Positions 1 through 61,997 of a stretch of DNA of 64,000 bases are shown in pieces. Origin of the DNA: Bacteroidota bacterium (GTDB taxonomy: Bacteria; Bacteroidota; Ignavibacteria; UBA10030); assembly GCA_025454835.1 (NCBI GenBank), contig JALONQ010000005.1, positions 1 to 64,000 of the forward strand, given 5' to 3'. The notes beneath the pieces were generated by a model. That model made no database searches, was not told the DNA's origin, and worked only from the letters and a program-made list of their open reading frames with translations. How positions within the stretch are numbered: the stretch's first letter is position 1; each line of letters opens with the position of its first letter. A program made the position numbers and the translations under genes.

Positions 1-391
1 ACGCTGATCAAGAACACATATCTGCGGTCATCTCTTCTTTCTGCGTCGTCTGCGTTCGCTTTGAGGTCCAGAAGCGGGAACGCTGATCACGCTGAAAAAA
101 GGGATCTACGCTGATCAAGGAAACATATCTGCGGCCATCTCTTCTTTCTGCGTCGTCTGCGTTCGCTTTGAGATCCGGAAGCGGGAACACTGATGACACT
201 GAAAAAGGGGATCCACACGGATCAAGATATTGTATCTGCGGTCATCCCTTGTTTCTGCGTCATCTGCGTTCGCTTTGAGGTCCAGAAGCGGGAACGCTGA
301 TCAAGAAAACATATCTGCGGTCATCTCTTCTTTCTGCGTCGTCTGCGTTCGCTTTGAGGTCCAGAAGCGGGAACGCTGATCACGCTGAAAA
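1..391. repeat. Tandem array of four ~80-107 bp units
   Basis: Four head-to-tail units begin at about 1, 108, 215 and 294. Each runs from ACGCTGATCAAGA through TCTGCGGTCATCTC, CTGCGTCGTCTGCGTTCGCT and GAGGTCCAGAAGCGGGAA, and usually closes with CGCTGATCACGCTGAAAAA. The third unit lacks the closing segment. Copies differ by a few substitutions only. No convincing gene lies in 1-448; the short reading frames simply cross the repeat. The array may continue to the left of the window. It belongs to the short-word intergenic repeats seen throughout this sequence. Its function is unknown. Confidence 0.9.
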
Positions 392-19852: not shown

Positions 19853-20012
19853 AAGCAGGAAGATTGAAGATGTAAGACTGAAGATGTAAGATTGAAGATG
19901 TAAAACTGAAGCTGATGCCTCTGCCAATTCGTTGGGAGGTATTGGACTCACGCCCTCTGTCGTACATCTTATTTCTCACATCTTCCATCTCACATCTCAC
20001 ATCTTTCATCCT
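19853..20012. repeat. Inverted pair of AGATGTAAGA-type arrays (empty hairpin)
   Basis: Left arm 19853-19912: three near-copies of a 17-18 bp unit AGATTGAAGATGTAAGA. Right arm 19962-20012: the inverted form, words ATCTCACATCTTCC. A 50-bp core lies between. The element fills almost the whole gap between two convergent genes (polyprenol-kinase-like + and yraN -). As RNA it can fold into a long imperfect hairpin on either strand, so a bidirectional terminator is possible. Confidence 0.85.
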
Positions 20013-22564: not shown

Positions 22565-22590
22565 CCACAAAGAACACAGAGATCACAAAG
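22565..22590. repeat. CACAAAG arm, left of the GxxExxY gene
   Basis: Plus-strand word array beginning CCACAAAGAACACAGAG and ending TCACAAAG, 26 bp. It pairs with the inverted array at 23050-23075 (22 of 26 positions complementary). The two arms enclose the GxxExxY gene. Confidence 0.9.
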
Positions 22591-22630
22591 CATGAGTCGA
22601 TGGATTGGGTCTTGGAAGAGGGCAAACAGG

Positions 22631-22996
22631 TCAAAGGATGTATTTGCGAATCTGAAAGCGATAGGACCCGAAGTTGATCAGTATCCCATGCTTCTGCCGT
22701 GAGGCCCGGAGGTAGCCCAAGATCTGTGCCTCGTGCTCGGGCGCGATGGTTCGTGTGGCCTTCAACTCGACGAGGAGCGTCCGGTCAACAAAAAGGTCGG
22801 CGAAGTACGACCCGACTTCCGTTCCGTCTTCGTCGTAGACCACCAGAGGCCATTGCTGCCGCACCTCATGACCGCGTTGGATGAGCCGATGCGTCATCGC
22901 ATTCTCGTATACTTTCTCCAGATGACCTTGGCCAAAGTACACGTGCACCTCATATGCGATCTGACGTACCTCGTCGCACAGTCGACGAATCTCCAT
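22631..22996 (-). CDS. GxxExxY protein (PDDEXK_3 family)
   Basis: 121 residues from ATG at 22996, chosen for the strong ribosome site GGAGG just upstream. A longer frame from 23104 would add residues encoded by the CACAAAG repeat (NHKEHKEHKE). The name-giving motif is GHLEKVY (GxxExxY). A PD-(D/E)XK nuclease core is seen as DLFVDRTLLVELKATR, with aspartate and the E-L-K triad, then the helix EAQILGYLRASR. Function in cells is not known; members are frequent in environmental genomes. It is enclosed by inverted CACAAAG arms at 22565 and 23050, and shares the strand of its neighbours. Confidence 0.92.
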   Translation of the reverse strand: MEIRRLCDEVRQIAYEVHVYFGQGHLEKVYENAMTHRLIQRGHEVRQQWPLVVYDEDGTEVGSYFADLFVDRTLLVELKATRTIAPEHEAQILGYLRASRQKHGILINFGSYRFQIRKYIL

Positions 22997-23049
22997 ACCC
23001 CCCTCCTCCAGACTTGAGACTGCAACATTCATCAACAACACATCAACTT

Positions 23050-23167
23050 CTTTGTGTTCCTTGTGCTCTTTGTGGTTACATCCTCCCACAGGCGGGTCTG
23101 CCACACATCTATTTCTTCGTGTTCTGTGTGTCCTTCGTGCCCTTTGTGGTTACATCTTCCCACAGGT
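23050..23167. repeat. Tandem CACAAAG arm, right of the GxxExxY gene and in rnhB
   Basis: Two copies of one unit on the plus strand: CTTTGTGTTCCTTGTGCTC, then TTTGTGGTTACATC, CTCCCACAGG (23050-23092), and again CTTCGTGTTCTGTGTGTCC, TTTGTGGTTACATC, TTCCCACAGG (23115-23165). The first is inverted relative to 22565-22590. The second forms the last codons of rnhB. Confidence 0.9.
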
Positions 23168-34455: not shown

Positions 34456-34540
34456 GGGAGTGCGTGTATGGAGGCCGGTAGTCGGAATTCTGGAATCGTG
34501 ATGCGTGATGAGGGATTCAGGAACCGATCTATTGTGTTCT

Positions 34541-34700
34541 GGCTTCTGATCTCTGGCTTCTGGCTTCTGACCTCTGGCTTCTGGCTTCTGACCTCTGGCT
34601 TCTGGCTTCTGACCTCTGGCTTCTGGCTTCTGGCTTCTGACCTCTGGCTTCTGGCTTCTGACCTCTGGCTTCTGGCCTCTGACCTCTGTCTACTGTATTC
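34541..34700. repeat. 21-bp tandem array CTCTGGCTTCTGGCTTCTGAC
   Basis: Several tandem near-copies of a 21-bp unit built from the words CTCTGG, CTTCTGG and CTTCTGAC, from about 34541 to 34690, then CTCTGGCCTCTGACCTCTG. It fills the gap between the DHS-like gene and the DUF3108 gene. Plus-strand frames across it give FWLLTSGFWLL-type repeats, which are not protein coding. No other feature is seen in 34456-34715. Confidence 0.92.
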
Positions 34701-34715
34701 CGTCTTCGTTTCTTC

Positions 34716-36666: not shown

Positions 36667-36770
36667 GGTGCGAGGTGTAAGGTGAAAGGTGTTTGGGAGG
36701 GTTCAATCGGCGCGCTTCAACAGACCCTTCCCTCCACCTTCCTCCTTCCACCTTTCACCTCTCTTCCGGC
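36667..36770. repeat. Inverted pair of AGGTGAAAGGTG arrays (empty hairpin)
   Basis: Left arm 36670-36703: GCGAGGTGTAAGGTGAAAGG, then GTGTTTGGGAGGGTTC. Right arm 36723-36770 is the inverted form, CTCCTTCCACCTTTCACCTC. About 20 bases lie between. It fills the gap between the OmpR-type regulator gene and the GT9 gene; both genes are on the minus strand, so it could end the GT9 promoter region or the regulator transcript on one side. Confidence 0.8.
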
Positions 36771-47688: not shown

Positions 47689-48107
47689 AGCAACCTCCGG
47701 AACACGGGTGAGTTACATATTCGAAGAACGGACAAGCGTGGAAGTCCACCGATTCCATGCGAAAGGTATCTGAATTGAACCGTCGCGTCAATGAATGAAA
47801 TCCTGATTCTCGACTATCGGAGCAATGTTTGCTTCAACGCACAGAACGGGTTACGACCGTGTAACGATGAATGGCGCGATCTGTGGAATCCTCGATGCCT
47901 TGCAACTTCTTGCAGTCTCATTAATGAGAAGCCCGGCGAAGAACCTCCGCCGGGCCCAGATCTACTGGCACTGATCTGTGACCACTGACCAGTGATCAGT
48001 GGCCTCTGGCCCCTCGACTACCCTTCGCTCGGGGAGGATCTTTCACCTCTCACCTCTCACCTTTCACCTTTCACCTCTCACCTCTCACGTCTCACCAAAC
48101 TCGGCTC
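47689..48107. repeat. 419-bp gap with terminator hairpin, palindromes and TTTCACCTC array
   Basis: No gene. 47928-48010 repeats the block at 37547: a perfect 8-bp stem GCCCGGCG/CGCCGGGC (47931-47955) followed on the minus strand by TTCTCATT, suiting a terminator for the GH57-like gene, then the palindrome GACCAGTGATCAGTGG. 48041-48096 is an array of CACCTCTCACCTTTCACCT words. The left part (47689-47927) shows a promoter-like position for the CsgG-like gene but no motif I can assign. Confidence 0.8.
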
Positions 48108-51306: not shown

Positions 51307-53220
51307 CTAGCTTTTCCGTCCCGCTTCCGCTTCGAGCCGCTTCGTCATCTCCATCAGTTCCTGCTGGTTTCTCAGGAACTCGCCGGTGTCGCGGCCTTCA
51401 CGCGCCGCCTGCCGCATGGCCGCCTGGTTCTGGTCGATGGCCCGCTTCAGCGTGGCACGCCGCAACATGAAGACGGCATCGTGCGCCACCTTCATCGGGT
51501 CTTCGCGCTCGATCTGGCGTTCGGCGTTCTCCCACGACCGGCTGATCTCATAGCGGGCCATGAGCGTGTCGGTGATCACGTCGCGCAGCGCCTGATCCTC
51601 CGTCGACTGAATGGCCGAGGCCACATCGAACGTTCCGGCCGTCTCGACATCGTGCAGGACCTTCTGGATGAGCGCATTGACCCGCGGGTCCGTGACGTCG
51701 TCCTCGTGGAGGTTCGCCATGAGATACTCAATAGCGTCGCGACGGAGTTCCAGGAAGAGCTTGAGGACTGCCCGTTCTGCGGTCGGCACCTCACGGGGAA
51801 GCTCTGTCGTGGCAGAAGGCATCGGCTCGTCGAAACTTCTATTTGTCGACTGACGACTCTCAGCCCCGAGCCTGCCGAGGGGGACGACCGGCGACTCACC
51901 CCTTCTCCCATCTCCCTTCTCACCTCTTCCCGCTTTCTCCATCTCCTTCCACAAGACACTCTCATACAGCCCATACCGCTCCGCCACATCCTTGATGAAG
52001 AACGACCGCTTCAGTTCGTCGCTGATGCGCGAGATCGACTGCACGATGGCCCGCACCGCTTTGGCCTTTCCTTCGGGCGTGTCGAACAGGCCCAACTTGC
52101 GGTACTCGGCGGCCTTGAAGTCGATGAACGAGACCGCCTGCCCGAGCAATTCACGGAAGGCCTTGGCCCCGTGGTTCTTGACGAACGAATCGGGGTCCTC
52201 GCCGGCCGGCAGGGCCACGATGCGCAGGTCCATGTCCTTCTCCAAGGCCAGGTCGATACCGCGGATGGTGGCGCGCGAACCCGCAGAATCGCCGTCGTAC
52301 ACCAACACGAGGTGCTTTGTGTACCGGCCGAGAAGCGTCAGCTGATCTTCGGTCAGGGCCGTACCACTCGACGCCACGACGTGCTGGATGCCGGCCTGGA
52401 ACAGCGATATCATGTCGGCGTAGCCCTCGACGAGCAGGACGGCATCTTCCTGCCGGATGGTCTCTTTGGCGTGAGAAAGCCCGAACAGGATGCGGCTCTT
52501 GCTGTAGACCGGCGTCTCGGGGGAATTGATGTACTTGCCCTGGATCGGGTCGTCGTCGCGCATCTTGCGGGCGCCGAAGGCCACCACGCGGCCCGCGGCT
52601 GAGAAGATCGGGAACATCGCCCGTCCGCGGAAGTAGTCGTAGAACGACGTGCCATCCTCGCGTTTGCGAAGCAGCCCGGCCGCCAGCAGATCTTCGTCGT
52701 GGATGCCTTCGCGTCGGGCATGCGTCAGCAAGTTGTCCCAGCTGTTCAGGGCGTAGCCCAGGCCGAACGAACGCATCGTGTCGTCGTTGAAGCCGCGCTG
52801 TTTGAAGTACTCGAGCGCGCCGCGCCCTTCGTCGGTCTTGGTGAGGTTGTCGTGGAAGAGGCGTCCGGCGAACCGGAGGGCGTTGAGAATGCGGTCGTTC
52901 TCTTCCTGCGCCTTCTCGTCCTTCCCTTCGTCCGGGATCTTGATGCCGGCCCGTTCTGCCAGCGACCGGACGGCCTCGACGAACGACACCCGTTCGGTCT
53001 CCATGACGAACTGGAAGACATTCCCCCCCTTGCCGCACCCGAAGCACTTGAAGATCTGCATCTCGGGGTTGACGTTGAACGACGGGGTCTTTTCCTGGTG
53101 GAAGGGGCAGAGTCCGATGAAGTTCTTGCCGCGGCGTCGGAGCTTGACCACGCCACCGACGACTTCGACGATGTCGGAGGAACGGCGGATGTCATCCAGG
53201 AGGGCATCGGAGAAGCGCAT
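51307..53220 (-). CDS. dnaG: DNA primase DnaG
   Basis: 637 residues from ATG at 53220 (MRFSDALLDDIRRSSDIVEV). CHC2 zinc finger with Cys38, His41, Cys59 and Cys62, then the RNA-polymerase core and TOPRIM with VLLVEGYADMISLFQAG and VLVYDGDSAGSRA. The C-terminal part (about 480-637) is the helicase-binding region. It makes RNA primers for replication. Residues about 425-460 (GRGEKGDGRRGESPV and following) are a low-complexity linker whose DNA looks like the intergenic repeats. The frame continues upstream to 53286 but those residues do not match primases. Confidence 0.95.
   Translation of the reverse strand: MRFSDALLDDIRRSSDIVEVVGGVVKLRRRGKNFIGLCPFHQEKTPSFNVNPEMQIFKCFGCGKGGNVFQFVMETERVSFVEAVRSLAERAGIKIPDEGKDEKAQEENDRILNALRFAGRLFHDNLTKTDEGRGALEYFKQRGFNDDTMRSFGLGYALNSWDNLLTHARREGIHDEDLLAAGLLRKREDGTSFYDYFRGRAMFPIFSAAGRVVAFGARKMRDDDPIQGKYINSPETPVYSKSRILFGLSHAKETIRQEDAVLLVEGYADMISLFQAGIQHVVASSGTALTEDQLTLLGRYTKHLVLVYDGDSAGSRATIRGIDLALEKDMDLRIVALPAGEDPDSFVKNHGAKAFRELLGQAVSFIDFKAAEYRKLGLFDTPEGKAKAVRAIVQSISRISDELKRSFFIKDVAERYGLYESVLWKEMEKAGRGEKGDGRRGESPVVPLGRLGAESRQSTNRSFDEPMPSATTELPREVPTAERAVLKLFLELRRDAIEYLMANLHEDDVTDPRVNALIQKVLHDVETAGTFDVASAIQSTEDQALRDVITDTLMARYEISRSWENAERQIEREDPMKVAHDAVFMLRRATLKRAIDQNQAAMRQAAREGRDTGEFLRNQQELMEMTKRLEAEAGRKS
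51841..51946. repeat. Repeat-like stretch inside the dnaG linker
   Basis: Within the primase gene: GTCGACTGACGACTCTCAGC near 51846, resembling ACTGACGACTGACTACTCTC at 54390, then CCCCTTCTCCCATCTCCC and TTCTCACCTCTTCCCGC at 51899-51930, resembling the ATCCCATCTCCC words near 31150. Length keeps the reading frame. It corresponds to residues about 425-460, between the catalytic core and the C-terminal domain. Confidence 0.65.
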
Positions 53221-53278
53221 AAGCCAATGTAGGAAGAAAAATCGCATTGGCGAAACGTTCCAGAAGTGCAAGCGGATA

Positions 53279-53324
53279 GACTCCAAACTCCAGGGCTGCA
53301 GATGCCAAACAGACGGCAGACGAC
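53279..53324. repeat. TTTGGAGTCTG arm, left of the first four-helix-bundle gene
   Basis: Plus-strand GACTCCAAACTCCAGGGC and GATGCCAAACAGACGGCAG. The reverse complement (words GTCTGTTTGG, TTTGGAGTC, GCATCTG) matches the array at 53776-53944. The two enclose the four-helix-bundle gene at 53385-53738. The arm starts about 60 bp upstream of the dnaG start codon. Confidence 0.85.
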
Positions 53325-53384
53325 AAATTGACAGTTGTCAGGACTGGATTCGAATTCGAATGCATGAAATCCCGGCCGATCTGG

Positions 53385-53738
53385 TCACATCTTCTCCTCA
53401 GATTTCTTGATGATCGCGGAGAGAATCTTGAGGAGTTGAGTGGCTTCATCTGTCAGTCGGTCGCGTTCCTTGGCGTGGGCCTCATGAACCTCGAGTAGTC
53501 CGAGCCAATGGCGAGATTCTTTCGCTTCTTTGCGTGAGATCCTCACGTGGAGGAGAAAGTCCTTTTGGCTCACGGCCTCATTCGCTTCGATGTAGTTCGC
53601 CCCGACCGAACCGGCCGCCCGGACCAACTGCCGAATGATCTCGATCATCGCGGGGGTCGGAATCACGTGTTTGGTGAGTGAGATGACGTCACGCGCGAAT
53701 GTTTGCATCCGTTGTTCCAGCGCTTGATAGCGATTCAT
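53385..53738 (-). CDS. Four-helix-bundle protein (23S rRNA IVP/S23 family), copy 1
   Basis: 117 residues from ATG at 53738 with a reasonable AAGGGA site; a longer frame from 53969 adds only repeat-derived residues (SKQMADPKWPDSKQT). The fold is four amphipathic helices with the family-typical RQLVRAAGSVGANYIEANEA and DFLLHVRISRKEAKESRHWL. The family is found in 23S rRNA intervening sequences, and Avd of diversity-generating retroelements is a relative; no retroelement is near. It is enclosed by inverted TTTGGAGTCTG arms (53279 and 53776). Function unknown. Confidence 0.9.
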   Translation of the reverse strand: MNRYQALEQRMQTFARDVISLTKHVIPTPAMIEIIRQLVRAAGSVGANYIEANEAVSQKDFLLHVRISRKEAKESRHWLGLLEVHEAHAKERDRLTDEATQLLKILSAIIKKSEEKM

Positions 53739-53775
53739 AACGTCCCTTGCTGTGCGACGATGATAGGTTGTCCGC

Positions 53776-53944
53776 ATTCTATCTGGCATTTGGCTCTTTG
53801 GCATCTGCCGTCTGTCTGGAATCTGACCATTTGGAGTCTGTCGTCTGTTTGGAGTCTGCCATCTGGCATCTGTCGTCTGTTTGGAGTCTGGCCATTTGGG
53901 ATCTGCCATCTGTTTGGAGTCTGCCATCTGGCATCTGGAGTCTG
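53776..53944. repeat. TTTGGAGTCTG array, right of the first four-helix-bundle gene
   Basis: About ten words of the types CATCTGCCGTCTGTCTGG, ATTTGGAGTCTGTCGTCTG and GTTTGGAGTCTGCCATCTGG. It is inverted relative to 53279-53324. It lies upstream of the four-helix-bundle gene and ends at a terminator-like hairpin (53944). Confidence 0.92.
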
Positions 53945-53981
53945 AACAAAGAACCCCAGAGACTCTCATCCCCGGGGTTCC
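53944..53981 (-). terminator. Intrinsic terminator for the PUR-domain gene
   Basis: GAACCCC (53951-53957) and GGGGTTC (53974-53980) pair perfectly around a 16-nt loop. On the minus strand the hairpin is followed by TTTGTTC. It ends transcription 20 bp past the PUR gene stop. Confidence 0.75.
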
Positions 53982-54001
53982 CAGTGCAGAGCCTGCCAGG
54001 C

Positions 54002-54223
54002 TCAGGCCTTGATGTGCTCCACCGCCTCCTTGAGGGCTTCCACGAACTCATCGGCCGCGCTCGAGAAGAGCTGGACCGACTTCTTCGCGTACTTCTTCGG
54101 GTCCTCCTTCGACGGCGACGAGGCCGTGATGTTCACGTACTTGTTCTGGTTCTTCGCTTCTTTGACGTCGAGGAAGTACACCGTCTTCCCCGCTTTGACC
54201 ATTTTGGTGAATAGAGCGTCCAT
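54002..54223 (-). CDS. PUR-alpha-like DNA/RNA-binding protein
   Basis: 73 residues, one PUR (DUF3276-type) domain: KTVYFLDVKEAKNQNKYVNI and QLFSSAADEFVEALKEAVEH. Bacterial single-PUR proteins occur in Bacteroidetes and spirochaetes and bind single-stranded nucleic acid as homodimers. Start ATG at 54223 preceded by GGAGA at a good distance. It stands alone between the four-helix-bundle gene and the groEL region, with its own terminator. Confidence 0.88.
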   Translation of the reverse strand: MDALFTKMVKAGKTVYFLDVKEAKNQNKYVNITASSPSKEDPKKYAKKSVQLFSSAADEFVEALKEAVEHIKA

Positions 54224-54944
54224 GGCTGATCTCCTGTGAGAACAGAGTGAGTGAATAGAAAATGGAGAATAGAAAATCGGGGGAGAACAACTGGGGGCAG
54301 GGGGAAGAGCGAGTGTGATGTCGTGAGCAGCAAGTGATCAGTAGGTAGACGAAGCGGAGGCTTGGATGTGCCCATGCTTCAGTCTCGATACTGACGACTG
54401 ACTACTCTCTACTCCATCAACACGGATCTCTGTTCGGAAACCTGAAATCTGCCGGCATGATCCCCCTCATGATGCGCAACGACGCCGTTCCGCGCCGTCG
54501 GCGGGGGAAATCTACAGGCGAGCGAGGAGATTGTCAAGTGACCTTCGAGAAAAACGTGATACAGAGTTCCACAGAGTTCTCACAGAGATCCACAGAGGAT
54601 CGATGAAGAGAATTGGCGATAGACTGACGACACAGCGAGAGAGCCTCGGACGCGTGTGGATCACACTCGATCACGATGCGATAGATCGAAACCACCGTGA
54701 CCTCTGTGTGGAGAACATCGCCACCTCCACCCCTCCTCCAACCTATCACCTACCCACGTTCTTCAAGGAACCACCTCTCACGTGTTCTTCAATGACAAAG
54801 CCCCCCAAGGTTTCCCCTGGAGGGCTCTGTTTTTCTCGTTTGCCGCTTTGGCCGTTTGCATCCCCCGAGCGAGTCGCGAGCTCAGTCGAGCGACGAGTCG
54901 AGGGGTTTGGCGTTTGGCGGTTTGGAGTTTGGTACGTTTGCCTC
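54224..54944. repeat. 721-bp repeat-rich gap downstream of groEL
   Basis: No gene. Word arrays include GAATAGAAAATGGAGAATAG near 54253, ACTGACGACTGACTACTCTC near 54390, and GTTCCACAGAGTTCTCACAG with GATCCACAGAGGATC (54562-54602). The last is mirrored by CCTCTGTGTGGAGAAC at about 54701-54716, making another inverted pair 140-160 bp long. Next come CTCCAACCTATCACCTACCC, a terminator at 54799, and TTTGGCGTTTGGCGGTTTGG (54906-54940) of the TTTGGAGTCTG family. Confidence 0.85.
54799..54826. terminator. Strong hairpin downstream of groEL
   Basis: On the minus strand AGCCCTCCAGG pairs with CCTTGGGGGGCT over eleven bases (with wobble) around a short GGAAA-type loop, followed by TTTG. On the plus strand the hairpin is followed by CTGTTTTTCTCG. 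Either direction could terminate. It lies about 120 bp past the groEL stop. Confidence 0.8.
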
Positions 54945-56597
<1,653 letters not shown>

Positions 56598-56888
56598 TTA
56601 CTTGGGCATGATGGCGAAGATGTCGCTTTCGCGCATGATCAACAGCTCCTCGCCGTCGACCATCACTTCTGTCCCCGAATACTTACCGTAGAGGACCTTG
56701 TCACCCACCTTCACCTCGGGGGTGATCGTCTTTCCGTCGTCGCTGATGCGACCCGGACCAACGGCGATGACCTCGCCCCACACCGGCTTCTCTTTGGCGG
56801 TGTCGGGGACATAGATCCCACCCTTGGTCTTCTCTTCGGCCTGCGATGGCTTCACCACCACACGGTCAGCCAAAGGCTTCATCTTCAT
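56598..56888 (-). CDS. groS: Co-chaperonin GroES
   Basis: 96 residues: [20 protein letters not shown] and [16 protein letters not shown] match the family. It caps GroEL. It is first in the groES-groEL operon and has a sigma70-like promoter overlapping a CIRCE operator directly upstream, so repression by HrcA is expected (no hrcA gene in the window). Confidence 0.98.
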
Positions 56889-56945
56889 GGCACTTCTCCT
56901 TGTAGTTGAACTGTAACTGGTTAAAAGGTAGGCAGTTAACGCCTA

Positions 56946-56972
56946 TTAGCACTCACAATGTCTGAGTGCTAA
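56946..56972 (-). promoter_or_regulatory. CIRCE operator (HrcA site) of groESL
   Basis: TTAGCACTC (56946-56954), nine spacer bases, then GAGTGCTAA (56964-56972): both arms match the CIRCE consensus exactly. It lies 57 bp upstream of the groES start and overlaps the -10 element. HrcA binds CIRCE and represses chaperonin genes until heat or protein stress. Confidence 0.97.
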
Positions 56973-56999
56973 TGTAGCGCTCAGAGGTGTCAAAGTCAA
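56971..56999 (-). promoter_or_regulatory. Sigma70-like promoter of groESL
   Basis: On the minus strand TTGACT (56999-56994), 17-bp spacer, TACATT (56976-56971). Close to the bacterial -35/-10 consensus, unlike the TTTG/TANNTTTG promoters of classical Bacteroidetes. The CIRCE operator begins at the -10. Confidence 0.75.
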
Positions 57000-57055
57000 G
57001 CCCCAGCGGCTTGGAAAGACAAAGGGAGGACCAATGGCCCTCCCTTGAGAGAGAA

Positions 57056-57625
57056 TCAGCTCTTTGGACGGATCCTTTGACGGTGCAACCAGAGCCGGTC
57101 CAAGACGACCAAAGCACCCAAACTGACCAAGATCAGCGCCAGTTTGTCAGCATCTGAAGCCGCTGGTTTCGGGGACCCTTCGGCTGGAGGTGACGGCACG
57201 GCTGACTTGAGCATCTCCCCCATCCAAGCATAACCTCTGGAGATTCCCTGCCTCCACTCCTCGACCAATCGGTCGGCTTGGCCTCGTCCTTCCGTCGAGG
57301 TGAACGCGATCGGTTGAGACAGAACGAGCCAGAAGACGCCAAGAACGGCCATCAGGGCAAACACATTACCCATGTTGTTCAACACCCACGCGGTCGCGGC
57401 GTTCTGGCGCTTGGGCAGGAGGCTCGACATCACGTTGCGGGTGAACCGGTCGGGGACCTCCGGGATCGGGGCCCGGCGCACGGTGCGAACGAGCGCCCGC
57501 TGGAACTCCATCTCTTTTCGACACGCTGGACAGACCGCCAGATGGCTTGTGACCCCCGCCTGCGTGGCATAGTCGGCCGTACCGTCGACCGTCTGCAGGA
57601 TCTGGGCTGGAGTGAGGTGATTCAT
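57056..57625 (-). CDS. Membrane anti-sigma factor with zinc-finger domain
   Basis: 189 residues. N-terminal anti-sigma zinc-finger (zf-HC2/ZAS) with H-x3-C-x2-C in HLAVCPAC (about residues 28-35), one membrane helix at about 86-104, a periplasmic segment and a second hydrophobic stretch near the C-terminus (LALILVSLGALVVLDRLWL). It should hold the adjacent ECF sigma factor inactive until an envelope signal. The start overlaps the sigma stop by 4 bp, so the two are co-translated. Confidence 0.88.
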   Translation of the reverse strand: MNHLTPAQILQTVDGTADYATQAGVTSHLAVCPACRKEMEFQRALVRTVRRAPIPEVPDRFTRNVMSSLLPKRQNAATAWVLNNMGNVFALMAVLGVFWLVLSQPIAFTSTEGRGQADRLVEEWRQGISRGYAWMGEMLKSAVPSPPAEGSPKPAASDADKLALILVSLGALVVLDRLWLHRQRIRPKS

Positions 57626-58221
57626 GCCGCGTCTTCCTTGCTGAACGCTTTGGTTTCCAATGAAAGTCGTCGACCGACGGCCTCCCGCAACATCATCCGG
57701 GCGCGAAAGAGCCTGGCTTTCACGGTCCCGAGCGGGACCCCCGTCACGTCGACGATCTCATCGTACGAAAGTTCTTGCACCGCGAACAACGTGAACGTCG
57801 TGCCATAGGCCTCGGGCAGCCTCTCGACCTCCTCGAGCACCACGCGCTGAGCCTCGGCCGACTCGAGCTGGAGGTCGGGCGGAAGGTCCGATGTCGGCGG
57901 GTCGATCGGCAGCTCACCCTCATCCGGCGTCGGATTCAAGGAGACGGTCGAAAGCCCCTTTCGCTCCAGGGCCGACGAGCAGACATTGAACACGATCCGA
58001 TACAGCCAGGTGCTGAAGGCCGAACGTCCCTCGAACCGTGGAAGGGCCTGGAACGCCCGTACAAATGCATCCTGAAGGGCCTCCTCGGCATCGCGCCGGT
58101 CCCGAAGCATCCGGACGGCCAAGGCCATCGACTTCTCCTTGTGCCGGGCGACCAACTGCGCGAAGGCCTTGCGGTCTCCGGCTCGGATCCGTTGGATGAT
58201 ATCAAGGTCGGTTTCGTGCAT
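57622..58221 (-). CDS. ECF RNA polymerase sigma factor (RpoE-like)
   Basis: 199 residues. Region 2 (AGDRKAFAQLVARHKEKSMA ... DAEEALQDAFVRAFQ) and region 4 (LPEAYGTTFTLFAVQELSYD ... GVPLGTVKARLFRARMM) are complete; no extra domains. It redirects RNA polymerase to its own regulon, with the downstream membrane protein as anti-sigma factor. The C-terminus is usual for the family. Confidence 0.93.
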   Translation of the reverse strand: MHETDLDIIQRIRAGDRKAFAQLVARHKEKSMALAVRMLRDRRDAEEALQDAFVRAFQALPRFEGRSAFSTWLYRIVFNVCSSALERKGLSTVSLNPTPDEGELPIDPPTSDLPPDLQLESAEAQRVVLEEVERLPEAYGTTFTLFAVQELSYDEIVDVTGVPLGTVKARLFRARMMLREAVGRRLSLETKAFSKEDAA

Positions 58222-58390
58222 TCCGCGGATACCGCTTAGACCTTGCGCGCTCCATCAGGGTTTCCAACGGAGTCTGGGCCTGCGGCTGTGCCTTTTATGG
58301 ACCCTTCTCTCGATCCCGGAAACCTTGCCGCAGCACCTCCGGTCAAAGTGGTAGTAACGGCACCATCACCACCCATCCACCGGAGCCACC

Positions 58391-58729
58391 ATGGAACCTG
58401 CAGTCATCGTCCTGATCGTCTTCGGATCGTGCGGCGCGATCCTCTGGAAGTTCTTCGACAGCCGCCACAAGGAGCGAATGGCCATGATCGACAAGGGCGT
58501 CAGCGCCTCAGAGCTGAAGGGAAGCCTGGCGTTTCAGCCGAATGCTCTCAGCAGTCTGAAATGGGGCCTTCTCGCGTTCTTCGCCGGCCTTGGCGTTCTC
58601 TTCGCCAACTACCTCGACGAAGTGCTGGACTGGGGCGACGCTTCGTATCCCTCCATGGTCCTGATCTTCGGCGGCGTGTCGCTGATCGTGTTCTACGCCA
58701 TCGCGGCGAGGAAAGAGAAGAAATCCTGA
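58391..58729 (+). CDS. DUF6249-like membrane protein
   Basis: 112 residues from ATG at 58391. Short membrane segment at 5-20, a charged loop with KERMAMIDKGVS, then two more hydrophobic helices (LSSLKWGLLAFFAGLGVLFA and MVLIFGGVSLIVFYAIAA) and a lysine tail. Resembles DUF6249; function unknown. It is divergent from the sigma factor, so the two may share a regulatory region. Its stop codon lies at the edge of the repeat arm at 58727. Confidence 0.75.
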   Translation: MEPAVIVLIVFGSCGAILWKFFDSRHKERMAMIDKGVSASELKGSLAFQPNALSSLKWGLLAFFAGLGVLFANYLDEVLDWGDASYPSMVLIFGGVSLIVFYAIAARKEKKS

Positions 58730-58828
58730 GGTGTAAGGTGTGAGGTGGGAGGTGATGGGTAGGAACCAAGAGGAAACCATTCTCGGATCCCTTCCTTCAA
58801 CCTCTCACCTATCACCTCCCACCCCTCT
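58727..58828. repeat. Inverted pair of AGGTGTGAGGTGGGAGGTGA arrays (empty hairpin)
   Basis: Left arm 58727-58764: TGAGGTGTAAGGTGTGAGG and TGGGAGGTGATGGGTAGG. Right arm 58795-58828 is inverted: AACCTCTCACCTATCACC and TCCCACCCCTCTTGAG. About 30 bp lie between. The left arm starts at the stop codon of the DUF6249 gene; the right arm contains the last codons of the P1 peptidase. It therefore sits between convergent genes and may act as a bidirectional terminator. Confidence 0.88.
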
Positions 58829-59974
58829 TGAGTCCCCCCTCCCGTACTTTCTCAGAAGGTCCTTCACCCGCTCCTGTGGCAGGGCGTGCACCGTGTTGCC
58901 GTTGACGCCCGTCATCGTCCTCGCGGCCACGAGCGCGTTCACGATCGCTTCTTCCGTCGCCTGAACGGTCGCTTCGAACAGTCGGTTCATCCGCGGCCCG
59001 GCCAGCATGCGGACCGTCGCAACCGAGTCGGATGCCGCCTCGGGATTGGCCGTGGAGAAGGCGATGAAGATATCGCCGGACGAGTCCTCGCCCCGTCCTC
59101 CGACGATGCCCACGCCGAGACCGGCGCGCTTTGCCAGCCGCTTCAGCTGATGCGGCAGGAGCGGCGCATCCGTCGCCACCACCACGATGATCGACCCACC
59201 GCCGTCGTCCGGAGCTCCACGCGACGGCGTGAGGTCGGTGATCTCCTTGCCCACCGGCATTCCGGCAATGGCGAAGTTCTGTCGGCGGCCGAAGTTCGAC
59301 TGCACGAGCACCCCCACGGTGTATCCGCCCGAACGCGTATCAAGCGCGCGCGACGACGTTCCCGTGCCGGCCTTGAACCCGAACGAGATCATGCCGGTGC
59401 CTCCGCCGACATTCCCTTCGGCCACCGGACCGGTCTTCGCATCTTCGAGCGCGGCGAAGACGTGCTCACGCTTCACGTGGAAGCCGTTGATGTCGTTCAG
59501 GAAGCCGTCGTAGGTCTCCGCCACGACCGGCAGACTGAAATCGTAGCTATTCCCCCAACGCTCAGCGGCCTTCAACGACCAGGCGATGACCGCTTCATGC
59601 ACCGCTCCAACGCTGTGCGTGTTGGTGATCGCCACAGGTCCGGACAGCAAGCCCGACTCCTCGACCCAGGTCGTTCCTGTCATCTCTCCGTTGCCGTTGA
59701 GCGACCACCAGCCGGCGAAGCATGGCACCGCTGACTGCTTGCCGCGCGGCAGGACCACCGTGACGCCGGTACGGACCGGGCCCTTCCCAGTCTCCAACGT
59801 GCCCGATCCCTCGATGAGCGTGGTCATTCCGACCTCCACGCCGGCGACATCGGTGATCGCGTTGAGCTTCCCGGGCGCTCCGTCAAATGGAATGCCGAGG
59901 TCGCGGGCGCGGGGCTGGGCGAGTACCAAAGCGGAAATCGCGACGAGGCAGTAGAAGACGGAGAGAGGCTTCAT
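58805..59974 (-). CDS. P1-family (DmpA-like) aminopeptidase
   Basis: 389 residues from ATG at 59974 (MKPLSVFYCLVAISALVLAQ, signal peptide). P1/DmpA fold: NAITDVAGVEVGMTTLIEG, ITNTHSVGAVHEAVIAWSLK and the autocleavage-type nucleophile region GGGSIIVVVATDAPLLPHQL, where glycine-serine is the processing site and N-terminal serine the catalytic nucleophile. These enzymes release N-terminal D- or beta-aminoacyl residues. Probably exported. Its final residues (RGVGGDR) are encoded by the repeat arm at 58805-58828. Confidence 0.9.
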   Translation of the reverse strand: MKPLSVFYCLVAISALVLAQPRARDLGIPFDGAPGKLNAITDVAGVEVGMTTLIEGSGTLETGKGPVRTGVTVVLPRGKQSAVPCFAGWWSLNGNGEMTGTTWVEESGLLSGPVAITNTHSVGAVHEAVIAWSLKAAERWGNSYDFSLPVVAETYDGFLNDINGFHVKREHVFAALEDAKTGPVAEGNVGGGTGMISFGFKAGTGTSSRALDTRSGGYTVGVLVQSNFGRRQNFAIAGMPVGKEITDLTPSRGAPDDGGGSIIVVVATDAPLLPHQLKRLAKRAGLGVGIVGGRGEDSSGDIFIAFSTANPEAASDSVATVRMLAGPRMNRLFEATVQATEEAIVNALVAARTMTGVNGNTVHALPQERVKDLLRKYGRGDSRGVGGDR

Positions 59975-59975
59975 C

Positions 59976-60012
59976 GAAGGTGGCAGGTGAGGGGTGGAAG
60001 GTGATGGGAAGG
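59976..60012. repeat. AGGTGAAAGGTG-family arm, left of the second four-helix-bundle gene
   Basis: GAAGGTGGCAGGTGAGGGG, TGGAAGGTGATGGGAAGGG: words of the AGGTG family on the plus strand. The inverted form (CACCTCTAACCGTTCACC) is at 60476-60511. The two enclose the four-helix-bundle gene. Confidence 0.75.
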
Positions 60013-60014
60013 GA

Positions 60015-60401
60015 TCAGCGTCGTTTCCGAGGGTCGTAGCCACTGAGTGAACGCTCAAGGCCTTTCAGCATGAGGCGGCATTCCTCGTACCTGCCCAAGA
60101 GCGAATGCAGTTGGTCATCGCTCAGATATTTCTTTCTATGTGCCACCGTCAGATGATGGCGCGTCTCCTGGATCTCAGCGAGAGCACGATTGATGCCTTC
60201 GAGATAGATTGCGGTGTGTCGGTTGTTCCACCCTTCTGCCAGGTTAGCCGGGCCCGAGTTCGAAGACCTTCGAACTTGCGACCCAAGCTCATAGAGTTCA
60301 AACCTCGGAAAGGAAAGAGAGATCTCGTGTACCTCAAAGACCAGCGCAAGCAGCTTTTGATAGACAACGAGGTCCTCAAAGCTATGGATAGCCTGTTCCA
60401 T
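60015..60401 (-). CDS. Four-helix-bundle protein (23S rRNA IVP/S23 family), copy 2
   Basis: 128 residues from ATG at 60401, with GAGGGGG upstream. Helical, with the family core FELYELGSQVRRSSNSGPAN, the NLAEGWNNR motif, and HHLTVAHRKKYLSDDQLHSL. About 30% similar in layout to the copy at 53385 but clearly divergent. It is enclosed by inverted AGGTG arms (59976 and 60476). Function unknown. Confidence 0.9.
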   Translation of the reverse strand: MEQAIHSFEDLVVYQKLLALVFEVHEISLSFPRFELYELGSQVRRSSNSGPANLAEGWNNRHTAIYLEGINRALAEIQETRHHLTVAHRKKYLSDDQLHSLLGRYEECRLMLKGLERSLSGYDPRKRR

Positions 60402-60475
60402 GATACTTCCCCCTCAGGAAGTGATATGTCAACTACGGTACAGCTCGGCTCGTCCCAGCAGACCGATGAAACCTT

Positions 60476-60511
60476 CACCACACCTCTAACCGTTCACCTT
60501 ACACCTTTCTT
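60476..60511. repeat. AGGTGAAAGGTG-family arm, right of the second four-helix-bundle gene
   Basis: ACCACACCTCTAACCG and TTCACCTTACACCTTTCTT: the inverted form of the arm at 59976. It lies between the four-helix-bundle gene and the aminotransferase stop codon (60510) and touches that stop. Confidence 0.75.
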
Positions 60512-61997
60512 AAAGAATGAACCAACCCCGGACGTCCTCTCTGCCATTCACGCGACTCGCTTTGTGATGGAACTCATTCGTCCTCGTCGAATACTCATAA
60601 TCAGCCCCCCACGCCGCGTGGTTTCGCGCGATCTCCCGGAGCGCCTCGACCACCAGGTCCACTTCGGCGTCGGTCGTGGTCGGATGCAGCGACACGCGCA
60701 CCCACCCCGGCTTCGCCGACAGGTCGCCGTGATCGATCTTGTCCGTGATCTCCGCCGACGTGGCCGGGTCGACGTGGAGCAGGTAATGACCATAGGTGCC
60801 GGCGCAGGAACATCCGCCCCGCACTTGAATGCCGTAACGGTCGTTCAGCAGCTTCACGATCAGATTGTAATGCACGTTCTCGACGTAGAACGAGAAGATC
60901 GGCAGGCGCTCACGATGCGCCTCGGCCAGCACCACCAGCCCGGGGATCTGCGACAGTCCCAAGAACATCCGCTCGCACAGCTCCGCTTCGCGCGCCGCGA
61001 TCATCGCGATGCCCATCTCTTCCTTGAGCTTCACGGCGAGCGCCGACCGGATCGCCTGCAGAAAGCCCGGTGTGCCGCCGTCCTCGCGGATCTCGATCTC
61101 CGGCGCATAGCGGTGGCCGCCCCAGGGATTCGTCCACAACACCGTTCCGCCTCCCGGCTGGTCGGGCGTCTTCAGGTGATAGAGGCCCGAATCGAAGATG
61201 AGCACACCGGATGTCCCCGGCCCGCCGAGGAACTTGTGCGGAGAGAAGGTGATCGCGTCGAGCTTCTCGAGCGGGTCGGCGGGATGCATGTCGATGGCCA
61301 CATACGGCGCCGCCGCCGCAAAGTCCACGAACGCCCAACCGCCGTGCTGGTGCATGACCTTCGCGAGCGCATGGTGCGGCGTGCGAATGCCCGTAACGTT
61401 GGAACAGGCCGTGAACGACCCGATCTTCACCTTCCGGTGACGATGCGCGTCGAGTTGCATCTCGAGGTCGCCGACGTCGACAAGCCCCCGGCGATCGGGA
61501 CGGATCACGACGACGTCGCCGATCGTCTCCTCCCACGAGGTCTGGTTGGAATGATGCTCCATGTGCGTCACGAACACGACGGGACGTTCTTCCGGCGGCA
61601 CGTGCACGCGATCGCGCAGCTGTTCCGGCACCCGTAAGCCCAGGATGCGCTGGAGCTTGTTGACGGCCGACGTCATGCCGAACCCGACGTTCAGGAGCAC
61701 GTCGTTCGGCCCGGCGTGCACATGCTTCTTGATGATCTCTGCGGCGTAGTGGTACGCCTGCGTCATCGACGTGCCCGTGACGTTCGTCTCGGTATGCGTG
61801 TTGCCGACGAACGGACCGAAGGTCTCCTGGAGCTTTCGCTCGATCGGCGCATAGAGCCGGCCGCTGGCCGTCCAATCGACGTAGCGAATGGTCTGTTCGC
61901 CATACGGCGATTCGAACGTTTGATCGACGCCGATGATCTGGCGGCGGAAGCGATCGAAATGCGTCTCTAACGAAGCTTGTTGAGTTTGGGCCTGCAT
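60510..61997 (-). CDS. Class V PLP-dependent aminotransferase (SufS-like)
   Basis: 495 residues. Fold-type I with the PLP lysine in FSPHKFLGGPGTSGVLIF, the phosphate-binding GSFTACSNVTGIRTPHHA and a C-terminal cysteine in the conserved RGGCSCAGTYGH, as in cysteine-desulfurase-like enzymes. It may be a cysteine desulfurase-type enzyme or a related lyase; the extended length (about 90 longer than SufS) and N-terminal YVDWTASGRLYAPIERKLQE variant keep the substrate open. It stands alone between repeat arms and the third T9SS gene. Confidence 0.88.
   Translation of the reverse strand: MQAQTQQASLETHFDRFRRQIIGVDQTFESPYGEQTIRYVDWTASGRLYAPIERKLQETFGPFVGNTHTETNVTGTSMTQAYHYAAEIIKKHVHAGPNDVLLNVGFGMTSAVNKLQRILGLRVPEQLRDRVHVPPEERPVVFVTHMEHHSNQTSWEETIGDVVVIRPDRRGLVDVGDLEMQLDAHRHRKVKIGSFTACSNVTGIRTPHHALAKVMHQHGGWAFVDFAAAAPYVAIDMHPADPLEKLDAITFSPHKFLGGPGTSGVLIFDSGLYHLKTPDQPGGGTVLWTNPWGGHRYAPEIEIREDGGTPGFLQAIRSALAVKLKEEMGIAMIAAREAELCERMFLGLSQIPGLVVLAEAHRERLPIFSFYVENVHYNLIVKLLNDRYGIQVRGGCSCAGTYGHYLLHVDPATSAEITDKIDHGDLSAKPGWVRVSLHPTTTDAEVDLVVEALREIARNHAAWGADYEYSTRTNEFHHKASRVNGREDVRGWFIL

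Follow-up and report, generated by a model that had tools for sequence, protein, structure and literature searches.

The intervening sequence (IVS) of the Coxiella 23S rRNA gene, which is excised by RNase III, carries three GACAGAT heptamers just ahead of the start codon of its S23p gene, and the number of heptamers varies among strains (PMC4990558). S23p belongs to PF05635, a family whose function is not known; one member, Xcc0516, is a toroidal homopentamer of four-helix bundles (PMC4990558). Heptameric repeats have also been described in their own right. The GGGAATC and GGGGATT repeats of Xanthomonas and Nostoc are intergenic and lie mostly between aligned open reading frames (ORFs), with 70-75 inverted heptamer pairs per Xanthomonas genome; the terms "four helix" and "S23" do not occur in the text of that report (PMC4692102). 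TAACTGA repeats occur in Beggiatoaceae, cyanobacteria and Bacteroidetes, in a patchy distribution that suggests transfer but for which "no mechanism is evident" (PMC4679880). Both kinds of repeat were described without reference to a PF05635 protein, and the literature that we searched contained no paper connecting them with the Coxiella IVS. Short tandemly repeated heptanucleotides in cyanobacteria were a subject of early work, as were tRNA-Leu introns.

Here we analyse a PF05635 gene from a Bacteroidota bacterium of the class Ignavibacteria, carried on a 64,000-nt stretch of DNA (hereafter the window; contig JALONQ010000005.1 of assembly GCA_025454835.1, positions 1 to 64,000). With a probability of about two in three, we interpret the feature as a copy of a compact mobile element that consists of one PF05635 gene within inverted arrays of degenerate 7-nt words and is lodged in an intergenic spacer.

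A PF05635 gene between inverted word arms

The gene is flanked by an aminotransferase gene on one side and a peptidase-like gene on the other. The features of the locus, together with two gene-less hairpins built from related words, are as follows.

60015-60401, minus strand: four-helix-bundle gene (23S rRNA intervening-sequence protein, S23p; PF05635 / TIGR02436), 128 aa
60399-60418, minus strand: leader CCTGAGGGGGAAGTATCATG, a poly-G run ahead of the start codon, common to most PF05635 genes of the genus
60472-60511, minus strand: left (upstream) arm, made of degenerate AGGTG heptads; it starts at the upstream aminotransferase stop codon
59977-60013, minus strand: downstream (right) arm of inverted AGGTG heptads, 2 nt short of the ATG of the next gene (59974-59972)
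58729-58824, no strand: gene-less AGGTG-word hairpin at the neighbouring gene's 3' end, with a loop of 46 nt
36673-36761, no strand: gene-less AGGTG-word hairpin, with words as in the arms of the 60015 gene

The 60015 protein was assigned to PF05635 ("23S rRNA-intervening sequence protein"; E 2.3e-24) with 86.1 bits against a curated cut-off of 33.8, and to TIGR02436 of NCBIfam with 81.4 against a cut-off of 24. Its AF2 model (pLDDT 95) contains four helices and has the four-helix-bundle fold of Xcc0516 and BT_0352, whose structures were the best PDB matches (2gsc, TM 0.85/0.93; 2rld, TM 0.72/0.85); five chains are deposited in each of these entries. PF05635 was the sole Pfam match of the protein, the element encodes no known transposase or recombinase, and no nuclease or recombinase motif has been described for the family. 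The window copy does not lie in an rRNA gene, as no Rfam rRNA match was found in 52800-61000. A wider Rfam search of seven loci of the same genome and the window neighbourhood identified no family; its only hits were microRNA-like chance matches, all to the 58727 hairpin. The phage collection searched held no PF05635 relatives at E<=0.001. Most PF05635 genes of the genus, and also most genes of the PDDEXK_3 family described below, have a poly-G leader (CTGAGGGGGG..ATG; window 60399-60418 and 22996-23015; genomes G000 and G001), while a GGGGG run within 22 nt of the first ATG was present in only 9 of 497 long ORFs.

Read in gene orientation, the upstream arm (60511-60472) is AAGAAAGGTGTAAGGTGAACGGTTAGAGGTGTGGTGAAGG, and the reverse complement of the downstream arm (60013-59977) is AAGGTGGCAGGTGAGGGGTGGAAGGTGATGGGAAGGG. 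Together with the gene, the arms fill the intergenic spacer from the aminotransferase stop codon to two bases before the next ATG. Their local alignment score of 17 compares with a shuffled mean of 8.0 and was reached by 1 of 5000 shuffles (p=0.0002); among 20,000 pairs of the same spacing elsewhere in the window, 26 reached it. As RNA, the arm duplex was predicted at -42.0 kcal/mol, against -23.8 +/- 4.2 for shuffled arms. The element has complementary termini that could form a stem around the ORF, as in an IVS, as well as the terminal inverted repeats of a transposable element. A first-pass annotation, made from the sequence alone, had proposed that inverted AGGTG arms enclose this gene and that their words recur in empty hairpins at 36667 and 58727. 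Arm alignment and duplex energy confirmed the first proposal. The recurrence was found at 36673 and 58729, and a link between empty hairpins and resident genes held as well: among resident genes, it was the arms of the 60015 gene that gave both hairpins their best word match.

Inverted arms in two gene families

The genome that contains the window carries 15 PF05635 genes. One or more were present in all 21 genomes of the relatives search and in no fewer than 231 of 296 genomes sampled from the phylum. At 88 PF05635 loci, we aligned the 250 nt upstream of the gene to the reverse complement of the 250 nt downstream. The mean score was 19.3 for own pairs, 11.8 for cross-locus pairs and 13.1 for 243 other ORFs of the window's genome, and scores of at least 20 were obtained for 43% of the loci, as compared with 1.3% of cross-locus pairs and 1.2% of the control ORFs. 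Dinucleotide shuffles were exceeded at p<=0.01 by 54 of the 88 loci, and at 31 of the 88 the own partner arm ranked first among all 88. PF05635 loci drawn from across the phylum (n=28; mean 18.6) and PDDEXK_3 loci (n=23; mean 21.3) behaved in the same way. In contrast, PIN-domain genes (n=29) had no excess of own over cross-locus pairs in the mean (12.4 vs 12.1), and none of the 29 reached a score of 20.

The first-pass annotation had called for such a survey and had put forward the rule that three of three genes of two families in the window are enclosed by inverted word arrays. The survey indeed revealed an association with inverted arms for PF05635 and PDDEXK_3, and not for PIN. Enclosure as a rule is supported for both families; the wording "three of three" overstates its detectability, because about one-third of PF05635 loci fail the generic alignment test. 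The enclosure of PF05635 genes by inverted word arrays is real, general and stronger than originally stated, and the heptad period, the word-protein match and the insertion sites described below are findings beyond that annotation. The other enclosed genes of the window are the following.

53385-53789, minus strand: second PF05635 gene, a distant paralog (E 6e-14); ORF extendable upstream to 53969
53783-53946, minus strand: upstream arm of the 53385 element, with CAGATGG/CAGACTC/CAAACAG words
53278-53341, minus strand: downstream arm of the 53385 element, with inverted words
22631-22996, minus strand: PF13366 PDDEXK_3 (GxxExxY-type) gene, of the other family with inverted word arms
22565-22592, minus strand: downstream arm of the PDDEXK_3 locus, with CACAAAGAACACAGAGATCACAAAG words
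23037-23078, minus strand: upstream arm of the PDDEXK_3 locus, TTCTTTGTGTTCCTTGTGCTCTTTGTGG on the plus strand

As originally noted, the 53385 copy is only distantly similar to the 60015 copy and alike in layout: both are PF05635 genes, their products are about 15% identical, and their words differ. The third gene of the "two families" is the PDDEXK_3 gene at 22631, which is enclosed by inverted CACAAAG-type words (window 22565-23078) and was the highest-scoring "control" ORF in the unbiased arm test of the survey. Its family was found in 18 of the 21 genomes of the relatives search.

Several further repeats were observed in the window. An array of about 25 CTGGCTT/CTGACCT heptads occupies 34533-34707, with no PF05635 gene nearby, and additional arrays lie at 19966, 26339, 30833, 31125, 35528, 37581 and 51899. 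At 47976-48103, the heptad word families GATCAGTG/CTCTGGC and TTTCACC adjoin, and nested insertions are possible there. A non-heptad class of hairpins with GAACGCTGATGACGCTGA / AAGGGATTGCCGC words is present in several copies (window 49-300; locus L026, 101-414).

Heptad period of the arms

Words vary widely among the 73 non-redundant PF05635 sites compared, and yet arm repetition was found at lags 7 and 14 only. The dominant lag was 7 or 14 at 58 of these sites, and lag-7 repetition covered 0.116 and 0.085 of positions, against 0.016 in shuffles. The PDDEXK_3 arms have a weaker period of about 9 nt, in contrast to the heptads of the four-helix-bundle family. In 376 kb of the 3.2-Mb genome that contains the window, 42 tandem arrays were detected at lag 7, as compared with 0-2 at each of the lags 5, 6, 8, 10, 11 and 13. 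Genomes with about 10 or more PF05635 genes yielded 9 lag-7 arrays in 337 kb, whereas same-class genomes without a PF05635 hit yielded 1 in 327 kb (p=0.025), in a small comparison of genomes unmatched for G+C or lineage.

Words follow the protein subfamily

When arms at unrelated sites were compared, strong matches were found in about 3% of pairs with a protein identity below 50%, in 25% at 60-70% identity and in 44% at 70-80%; the association between words and protein had p=0.0016 under within-genome permutation of arms. A protein-only search identified 57-63% identical relatives of the 60015 protein in a Brocadiaceae MAG, two Zixibacteria, an archaeal MAG, an Ignavibacteria MAG, Parcubacteria and others. 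AGGT-type words accompany most of its close relatives, in other phyla and in one archaeal MAG, although the archaeal case needs confirmation because MAG contigs can be misbinned. Strict AGGT heptads were present at 6 of 9 members of the window subfamily and at 8 of 65 other sites (p=0.001), while the word types of other paralogs include CGATTGT and GAGAATGG. Dispersed gene-less arrays of the window's genome shared more words with resident PF05635 arms (0.200) than with GC-matched arms of other genomes (0.111; p=0.0005). These sequence comparisons support the view that words track the protein subfamily at unrelated sites. As a separate observation, locus L009 (G000:C5) holds three PF05635 genes with differing word types within 18 kb, beside nucleotide-sugar genes.

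This pattern bears on the possibility that a Y1 (RAYT/IS200-like) transposase moves the arms in trans, the four-helix-bundle gene serving as passenger or regulator, a logic similar to that of REP/RAYT pairs (see PMC3116915). Two PF01797 matches are indeed encoded in the same genome. They are located on contigs C33 and C30, the element being on C16 with no Y1 transposase adjoining it; moreover, two Y1 matches are set against many word families, and the words follow the PF05635 protein. We regard such an arrangement as very unlikely.

Genomic setting and insertion sites

PF05635 genes lie between two genes of their own strand in 92 of 110 cases, as compared with 390 of 679 ordinary genes (57%; p=5e-8). 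The same two neighbours of the window copy are kept in no relative, and we therefore relied on cyanobacterial plasmids for the comparison with empty sites. Almost all PF05635 genes on plasmids are cyanobacterial; 9 of the 10 examined are bordered by tandem word arms, in most cases on both sides and otherwise on one. Five empty-site comparisons were obtained with cyanobacterial relatives, the clean ones pointing to insertion into spacers of 12-13 nt; duplication-like repeats were found in three of the five and were imperfect in two.

The site of the Trichormus variabilis pC element, which is bordered by a duplication of about 8 bp (gtaattaa), is a 13-nt spacer in Fremyella, with flanks 97-98.5% identical. 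The Nostoc MS1 element corresponds to a 12-nt spacer and has a repeat resembling actaagtag. The N. edaphicum element lies antisense between nrdB and nrdA and is bordered by ttag at either end. The Picosynechococcus PCC 7003 element (L226, 1498-1854) interrupts a type III-B CRISPR operon between cmr2 and cmr3, where it could pass wrongly for a CRISPR accessory gene; in PCC 7002 the two genes are uninterrupted, with a 12-nt spacer. The Nostoc C052 element lies behind a TraM-like gene and is absent from two C057 plasmids. Presence and absence among relatives suggest insertion; in both the Picosynechococcus and the Nostoc C052 comparisons, the empty relatives also hold unrelated spacer sequence.

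Arm length differs between copies at the same site. The Scytonema left arm is exactly 14 nt shorter than that of T. variabilis, the right arms of Nostoc C052 and N. edaphicum are one heptad apart in length, and two Zixibacteria that share the position of the element differ in the lengths of both arms. Taken together, the alignments support a scenario in which arms and gene come and go together at several sites and arm length changes by whole heptads.

Conceivably, the word hairpins are independent intergenic repeats, similar to terminators or REPs, and the four-helix-bundle gene merely enters their loops. Gene-less hairpins and arrays are common, in keeping with this; the corresponding site in Nostoc ATCC 53789 (L236) holds array remnants and no gene, and in a same-genus genome (L157, G001:C90) the aminotransferase ortholog, split into two overlapping frames, is followed by a gene-less hairpin of CCAAACG words. 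However, most empty sites consist of a short spacer only, with no hairpin, and therefore arms and gene are missing together; in addition, the words track the protein. We consider independent repeats unlikely.

Spread by reverse transcription of hairpin RNA, with the protein acting as an Avd-like RNA-binding cofactor, would fit the similarity to the Avd fold (4dwl, TM 0.77/0.91), a weak profile match and the sense direction of the genes within operons. Against 15 PF05635 copies, though, the same genome (listed as 100% complete) has 0 matches to the reverse transcriptase profile PF00078, and among the five plasmid insertions there is an antisense one; a retroelement is quite unlikely. The least probable of the explanations weighed is one without mobility, in which the protein binds a cis-regulatory hairpin to control its own mRNA and the arrays drift by replication slippage. 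Arms that overlap the ribosome-binding region, length changes of whole heptads and purine-rich left arms (42 of 48) agree with such a role, but it would lead one to expect neither empty sites and duplications nor a spread over several phyla and gene-less copies with resident words.

Slippage was also considered as a sole cause and was rejected, as it leaves unexplained why inverted arms pair across the gene, why words match the protein and why empty sites exist.

A possible mechanism and its implications

For a compact mobile element, our preferred reading, we propose that the PF05635 protein, whose solved relatives are homopentamers, would recognise tandem heptads of its own word type, either as single-stranded nucleic acid or as a hairpin, and that the protein, aided by host enzymes, would promote movement of its own element. 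Gene-less hairpins would probably be moved in trans by the same protein. By analogy with the 23S rRNA IVS, the arms may pair into a transcript stem cleavable by RNase III, and such cutting could limit the harm to flanking genes. The rRNA IVS itself is, on our best reading, a special case of this kind of element.

A broader proposal, to which we give somewhat less than even odds, is that PF05635 proteins drive the mobility of a new and very widespread class of elements. Each subfamily would read its own 7-nt word in tandem, one per subunit or step; with neither a classical transposase nor a reverse transcriptase, it would move gene-less hairpins as well as its own element. The heptamers of cyanobacteria, Xanthomonas, Beggiatoaceae and Coxiella would be the footprints of such movement. 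If the protein and the heptads do make up one mobile element, the function of PF05635 and the origin of scattered heptamer repeats would become one question, that of heptad recognition and DNA movement, and the heptamer repeats of Xanthomonas, Nostoc, Beggiatoaceae and the Coxiella IVS, reported separately and without a common cause, would share an explanation. A protein-to-word recognition code might also exist. The element would then be a common and overlooked force in intergenic evolution, since the family is present in at least 231 of the 296 sampled genomes of the phylum, extends to other phyla and to an archaeal MAG, and since operons, including one for type III CRISPR, are among the sites of insertion.

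Comparison with known systems

The GGGAATC / GGGGATT repeats resemble the window-type element in their 7-nt units and intergenic location, but they were read as G-quadruplex repeats and were not linked to mobile elements (PMC4692102). TAACTGA repeats likewise consist of 7-nt tandem units; they differ in having one fixed word, rare inverted pairs and a proposed role in binding a translational regulator (PMC4679880). REP/REPIN-RAYT systems also comprise short hairpins in many copies, with a cognate protein that moves them in trans, yet RAYT is an HUH/Y1 transposase, whereas here a four-helix-bundle protein is paired with heptad-array hairpins. The fold is also that of Avd, a protein of diversity-generating retroelements (TM 0.77), although the 60015 protein scored 20.5 bits against a cut-off of 80 for the NCBIfam DivGenRetAVD profile, and its genome lacks a reverse transcriptase.

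The closest counterpart is the 23S rRNA IVS with an S23p ORF, as in Leptospira and Coxiella, where a protein of the same family is encoded inside a stem of complementary ends. We place the element with this kind because protein and stem are common to both. The described IVSs reside in rRNA helices, whereas the window-type element lies between protein genes, is present in many copies per genome, and has two-sided inverted heptads, subfamily-specific words and gene-less relatives. With respect to the literature searched, it is new in where it lies, in its copy number, in its heptad arms and in the specificity of words to subfamilies.
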